Assembly (NCBI GenBank): GCA_916610825.1
Contig: OU744446.1
Coordinates: forward strand, 22,887,223-22,951,222
Direction of reading: 5' to 3'
Length of the DNA: 64,000 nucleotides
Origin: Haliclystus octoradiatus
Lineage: Eukaryota; Cnidaria; Staurozoa; Stauromedusae; Haliclystidae
Each line of letters opens with the position of its first letter. The first letter of the stretch is position 1. The translations under genes and the position numbers were made by a program. The notes under the pieces are model-generated. The model did no database searches and had not been told where the DNA came from. It worked only from the letters and a program-made list of their open reading frames with translations. Positions 26,811 through 27,912 of the stretch are shown piece after piece.

Positions 26811-27057
26811 ACTATGTCAAAAAAACACATTCTTGAGTATTGTTGGTACAGTAATCTAACAGTAATCAAGAATGTGTCTTCTCTGACTCACTCATCATTG
26901 TTATCCATTAACAGCTCTGCCAATGTTGGCATTGTGCACTATTTAAATCTGATGAAATATAAATATATCTTTATTGTATTGTTATAATCGTAGTATTATG
27001 GATCTGTACCAATGCAGTATGCTGATACTATAATCTAAATTTCCTTATCTAAGTTAC

Positions 27058-27142
27058 CTGTAATCGAAAAGCAATTCCTCTCCACGTTCGACATTCCTTT
27101 TAGCAAATATTCCAATACGATGGTCACCATTTACCATCATAA
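27058..27142 (-). CDS. EZH: EZH SET exon, second (downstream) duplicate
   Basis: An 85-base exon copy with the same donor (CAG then GTAACTTAG) as its twin. Its coding content differs by one base, giving GEELLFDYR instead of GEELFFDYR. The acceptor is AG after an ATAATAAT run without a pyrimidine tract, so it is probably weaker. Because 85 is not a multiple of three, a transcript including both copies would lose frame. If used at all, this copy must replace the other. It may instead be a non-functional duplicate. Confidence 0.6.
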
Positions 27143-27403
27143 CTATTATTATTATTACTATGTCAAAAAAACATATTCTTGAGTATTGTTGGTACAGTAA
27201 TCTAACAGTAATCAAGAATGTGTTTTCTCTGACTCACTCATCATTGTTATACATTAACAGCTCTGCCAATGTTGGCATTGTGCACTATTTAAATCTGATG
27301 AAATATAAATATATCTTTATTGTATTGTTATAATAGTAGTATTATGGATCTGTACCAATGAAGTATGCTGATACTATAATCTAAATTTCCTTATCTAAGT
27401 TAC

Positions 27404-27488
27404 CTGTAATCGAAAAACAATTCCTCTCCACGTTCGACATTCCTTTTAGCAAATATTCCAATACGATGGTCACCATTTACCATCATAA
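27404..27488 (-). CDS. EZH: EZH SET exon ([10 protein letters not shown] ... ELFFDYR)
   Basis: Coding [18 protein letters not shown] and GEELFFDYR, the substrate-channel and SET-C part with the family-invariant [11 protein letters not shown] and ELFFDY. It begins in phase with G from the previous exon (Val) and ends AG, completed by A of the last exon (Arg). The acceptor is TTATTTGTAG. This is the copy with the canonical FF and is likely the exon normally used. Confidence 0.92.
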
Positions 27489-27912
27489 CTACAAATAATA
27501 ACATGGAAAGTTGAATTGAAAGAAAAGAGGACCAAAATATTGAATTCATATTCATGTTTTGAAATGTCCCTCATATAACGACCAGCATGTCAGTTTGTCA
27601 CATTCTGTGACTTGCTGAAACGATGAATGCAGTCACTAAGCACAAGAAATTCATGAATATTTTATAAAATCATCAATGGTTTCTAAAACAAACGTTTGTC
27701 AAAATGTTCTGCAGTAAATTGGATGTTGAACATTCAATAGACAAACTACTAAGATAACTACTTTAAAAAATCAACTGGCTATAATCATTACTATCAATAC
27801 AGTTTCGGGAACGTCATCAAATGTACCAATTATGCTCAGACCATTGCCCCCTTGAATTATCATGTTAATGTTAATCAGAATAAGTACATTTCAGATGAAC
27901 TATGAATTTTAC

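Follow-up and report, generated by a model that had tools for sequence, protein, structure and literature searches.

A young tandem duplicate of a SET-domain exon in the EZH gene of the staurozoan Haliclystus octoradiatus

The closest described relatives of the exon pair considered here are FGFR2 IIIb/IIIc, exons 3 and Ab of U2AF1, and Dscam, which, as far as the outlines of these systems go, are built from neighbouring or head-to-tail exon copies of equal phase, and in which joining both copies is non-productive where the exon length is not divisible by 3; the pair in the EZH gene of Haliclystus octoradiatus shares both properties. It also resembles the unannotated tandem exon duplicates of animal genes, in which a duplicate lies beside the regular exon, expressed or not, and some of which, by the summary of that survey, are expressed (PMC9013439). 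In addition, the locus has its gene family in common with mammalian EZH2, for which splice variants are reported in outline (PMC11754826; PMC3606351; PMC6282306). Judged by titles and the beginnings of abstracts, no tandem duplicate of the SET exon was found in the part of this splice-variant literature that was surveyed, and no description of the present duplication was found in the open-access literature, surveyed mostly on the same basis.

The EZH gene and its duplicated SET exon

The window analysed, that is, the whole stretch of DNA, comprises 64,000 nucleotides of contig OU744446.1 (assembly GCA_916610825.1, positions 22,887,223 to 22,951,222 of the forward strand), and its main features are collected in Table 1. 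A tblastn search with human EZH2 returned collinear pieces lying between residues 81 and 744, with gaps, at 52764 to 24841 of the minus strand, the order of the CXC and SET regions agreeing with that of EZH2, and the C-terminal 83 residues matched human EZH2 with an E value of 3.4e-37, compared with 3e-17 for the best non-EZH SET chain. The identity of the gene and of the SET exon proposed by an earlier, sequence-only reading of this DNA holds. Protein searches of the whole genome detected no second EZH locus, with EZH-like matches only at C1:22912033-22915216 and all others at most 60% identical (9 of 9 and 5 of 5 candidates scored); the idea of a second EZH gene relaxing constraint was set aside on these searches. 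Besides the acceptor of the downstream copy, 17 acceptors and 15 donors of the gene were assigned by eye from frame and GT/AG; several of these, at exons whose neighbour lies outside the located pieces (e1, the e3 donor, and the e5, e8 and e9 acceptors), stand without support from continuity.

Table 1. Coordinates of the EZH locus and the duplicated unit (positions in the window)
Feature	Position	Strand	Remarks
EZH gene as far as located	24805..52761	-	Pieces matching human EZH2 residues 81 to 744, with gaps; N-terminal part outside located pieces
Last EZH coding exon, to stop codon	24805..24892	-	
EZH exon preceding the duplicated exon	27913..27993	-	
(ATT)n microsatellite, left edge of duplication	26625..26815	.	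Holds apparent duplication breakpoint
Two head-to-tail copies of 346-bp unit	26798..27491	.	A, low coordinates; B, high coordinates
Exon copy A	27058..27142	-	85 nt; downstream in transcript; Leu (EELLFDYR); acceptor context is the duplication junction
Junction sequence TAATAATAATAATAG preceding exon A	27143..27157	-	
Foldback hairpin of dispersed element	27162..27233	-	3' arm holds U7 tract
Intron separating copies B and A	27143..27403	-	261 nt
Exon copy B	27404..27488	-	85 nt; first in transcript; Phe (EELFFDYR); acceptor TTATTATTTGTAG

Within this gene, Tandem Repeats Finder reports 2.0 copies of a 346-bp unit with 98% matches and a score of 1346, far beyond chance, and the repeated unit consists of adjacent exon copies together with flanking intron. 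The two copies differ at 6 of 345 sites in register (26828, 26878, 26905, 26989, 27015 and 27071, each compared with the position 346 higher), a divergence of 1.7%. This confirms the duplication as genuine in the assembly, and with it the earlier claim that a 346-bp unit bearing the 85-base SET exon is present twice at about 98% identity. Five of the differences fall among the 260 sites outside the exon and one among the 85 within it, a pattern that gives no sign of selection or constraint on either copy; the reading frame of copy A is still open, and at such divergence little else is expected. The sole exon difference, at 27071/27417, is TTT (Phe) in B and CTT (Leu) in A, at what we take to be F723 of human EZH2, so the single coding change from ELFFDY to ELLFDY in the downstream copy also stands; the motif, earlier called family-invariant, was compared here in three alignments, all of them with human EZH2. 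No on-topic paper on EZH2 F723, judged by title, was found in the open-access literature.

Other features of the window and of the genome were observed in passing. A minus-strand open reading frame at 5717-6283 carries a DAN cystine-knot domain (PF03045, 5.9e-19), and an open frame of 1016 aa at 15827-18877 is LINE-like, a label given by reading only. Introns of EZH hold a 134-bp tandem array of 2.5 copies (28431-28764) and a 46-bp inverted repeat (31595-31698) with 89% complementary arms and a 12-nt spacer. The mitochondrial contig C33 (18,316 bp) bears putative family B DNA polymerase frames at both ends (3-1179 and 17698-18315), an arrangement that we take to be the one seen in medusozoan mitochondrial genomes, and its gene order is presumably medusozoan as well; its cox1 is open when TGA is read as tryptophan, and ARAGORN finds only tRNA-Trp and tRNA-Met on it.

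The dispersed element and the ancestral copy

The 346-bp unit carries a dispersed foldback element, for which a 692-bp query gave at least 65 matches (40 of 393 candidates were scored), and (ATT)n-type tracts also adjoin the element copies L004, L007 and L008. The 94 nt before exon A fold at -21.1 kcal/mol (z -3.6), and the U7 tract in the 3' arm of the hairpin is the only U-rich tract among them; an equal length before exon B is unremarkable (z 0.8). The 59-nt arms of the two element copies are 75% complementary to each other, and each copy also forms a fold of its own, at -21.1 and -27.4 kcal/mol, with local folding also present when the entire 692 nt are folded (of 20 shuffles, 1 reached an equally good fold). 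Because each copy folds on itself locally, long-range pairing of the two that would loop out exon A was not adopted as a model, and with respect to RNA competition as a mechanism of exclusion, the element arms were likewise seen folding locally.

The dispersed copies can also be used to polarise four intron differences, for which seven element loci were compared (L002-L008, of which L004 and L005 overlap). Copy B looks ancestral at 26878, where T is present in all compared arms except one of L002, at 26989, where the six loci that cover the site have A, and at 26905, where L002 and L003 carry A, the remaining loci G and none of them C. Copy A looks ancestral at 26828, with C in L002, L003 and L006. 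At the exon site, comparison with human EZH2 points to the Phe of B as ancestral. The ancestral base thus lies in B at 4 of the 5 polarised sites (27015 is not among them), an excess that is not significant and that would fit B as the conserved copy.

The frequency of such events was gauged with a scan for tandem units of period 100-2000 and at least 95% identity, from which low-complexity rows were dropped. In a sample of 20 stretches of the genome, each of 10 kb, no simple duplication of two copies turned up; L025 resembles satellite DNA, and in L028 a 168-bp unit is arrayed about five times. The sample thus gives no indication that duplications of this kind are common. The window itself contains the 346-bp pair, a 219-bp pair and a 96-bp array. 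In the large EZH intron, at 40047-40484, the 219-bp unit stands as two identical copies in tandem; taken singly, it is a repeat of high copy number with at least 40 matches (40 of 1251 candidates scored), 39 of those 40 being at 99% to one unit. The 96-bp unit forms four in-frame tandem copies (38115-38494) inside an open reading frame at 37858-38910 that is Copia-like by reading of its sequence and also lies in an EZH intron.

Acceptor sites, reading frames and predicted transcripts

The duplication junction falls at the acceptor of copy A, so that the exon is preceded by TTATTATTTGTAG in copy B and by TAATAATAATAATAG in copy A, where the latter occupies the position of the former pyrimidine tract. 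Pyrimidines at -20 to -5 number 6 in the A acceptor and 8-13 in the 17 other EZH acceptors, and at -14 to -4 the corresponding values are 3 and 6-10. With a weight matrix built from the 17 sites of this single gene, the A acceptor scores -6.5, below all 17 leave-one-out values, although the lowest of these, the accepted site e9 (-6.3), is nearly as low; among 1298 decoy AGs the A acceptor stands at the 47th percentile. The acceptor of A is therefore weak, and it appears to have been degraded by the duplication junction itself through loss of the pyrimidine tract. The sequence-only reading had credited both copies with intact GT donors and AG acceptors; the dinucleotides are indeed present and the donors of the two copies are identical, but the A acceptor is intact only at its AG. 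A further AG at 27158-27159, 15 nt upstream of exon A, scores 0.0, a value inside the span of the true sites that corresponds to the 90th percentile of the decoys, and its use would insert five in-frame residues, V-I-I-I-I. It is possible that exon A may be spliced in through this better AG, and exon e14 was read as using its AG despite another AG 11 nt upstream, so splicing does not always choose the first AG.

The reading frames predict the product of each combination. Copy B alone gives the normal reading, copy A alone from its original acceptor gives the Leu form, and copy A alone through the upstream AG gives the VIIII insert plus Leu, and inclusion of neither copy shifts the frame. When B and A are joined, the reading FFDYSYDGKW ends at a stop codon that lies in A, 66 nt before the last junction as counted on the sequence, and a stop in A is reached with either acceptor of A. 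The argument that double inclusion breaks the frame, 85 not being a multiple of 3, is thereby upheld. The stronger claim, that of enforced mutual exclusivity, does not follow, because the frame makes double inclusion useless without preventing it and the 261-nt intron should be spliceable. Steric exclusion was rejected on comparison of these 261 nt with another intron of the gene, of 80 nt, between 28074 and 27993. Nothing observed here would block double inclusion; the frame is predicted to make it non-productive.

Alternative explanations and relation to known systems

The explanation that we consider probable is that this is a young tandem duplicate in which upstream copy B does the work and downstream copy A is mostly skipped. 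A recent tandem duplication would have copied one SET exon of a single EZH gene; of its two breakpoints, one would lie within the element-borne (ATT)n tract and the second at the 3' splice site of the exon. Copy B, in which the original acceptor and the ancestral residue Phe are kept, would supply the normal enzyme, and copy A, which keeps its donor and lost its pyrimidine tract, would mostly be skipped; its inclusion after B would lead to the stop codon, and its inclusion alone to the Leu form, perhaps with five extra residues. The actual splicing and the near-neutrality of the duplicate are what we infer from the DNA. The damage to the A acceptor at the junction makes skipping of A better supported than an isoform switch, so among the options raised earlier a harmless recent duplicate is the stronger and the switch is less favoured.

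A different fate for copy A is unlikely, namely that A is often spliced after B as a poison exon, whose stop 66 nt before the last junction would send transcripts to decay and lower EZH output. Both B+A readings hit this stop, and the score of the AG at 27158-27159 is like those of true acceptors. Yet selection should act against a steady cost of this kind in a gene for a chromatin enzyme present in one copy, except where inclusion is low, and the 50-55 nt rule for decay comes from other animals. An assembly or haplotype effect, through misassembly or a duplication present on one chromosome copy only, is similarly improbable. One breakpoint appears to lie within a microsatellite, and the summary of the jrHalOcto1.1 assembly records that curation removed 33 haplotypic duplications and that one haplotype is represented, the alternate haplotype being deposited separately and RNA-seq data (ERR9434978) deposited as well (PMC9975415). 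The same source gives 68x PacBio HiFi coverage and QV 56.6 (PMC9975415), and the 692-bp pair should fit inside single HiFi reads, which makes its misassembly unlikely. Heterozygosity of the duplication is quite possible and would suit a young, mostly skipped duplicate too.

More doubtful is a functional pair of mutually exclusive exons, in which PRC2 activity is tuned by regulated choice of B (Phe) or A (Leu, with or without VIIII). The equal lengths and phases, the identical donors and the open frame in A are as such a pair would have them, as is an exon length that is no multiple of 3, so that joining both copies is non-productive, and decay of double-inclusion transcripts is named as a contributor to exclusion in the summary of one study (PMC6071210). 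Against these stand the 261-nt intron, at which no steric block is expected, the degraded original acceptor of A, the absence of any sign of selection on A, and a divergence of 1.7%, whereas tandem-exon substitution events in humans are, in the outline of their survey, mostly ancient (PMC9741552). Most improbable of all is a newborn mutually exclusive pair in the catalytic core of this staurozoan's only EZH, with the duplication set up by a mobile foldback element, in which choice of A would place Leu at the F723 position and, through the better AG, VIIII in the SET core; the resulting isoform would be hypomorphic or dominant-negative.

If copy A is used, the locus would show alternative exons soon after their origin, in a chromatin enzyme that is strongly conserved, with starting conditions that are directly readable, namely the weakening of one acceptor by the junction and the penalty that the frame places on double inclusion. 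If A is skipped, which is more likely, the locus would illustrate that duplication of an exon in a gene present once can persist when the breakpoint falls at a splice site. As far as the outlines of the known systems allow comparison, the EZH pair is unlike FGFR2, U2AF1 and Dscam in that its copies are near-identical, its downstream acceptor is degraded by the junction, only the frame favours exclusion, and the pair is known here from sequence alone. Unlike the unannotated tandem duplicates summarised for animal genes (PMC9013439), the duplicated unit includes a copy of a dispersed foldback element, next to an (ATT)n tract, and it lies in a cnidarian gene for a chromatin enzyme.
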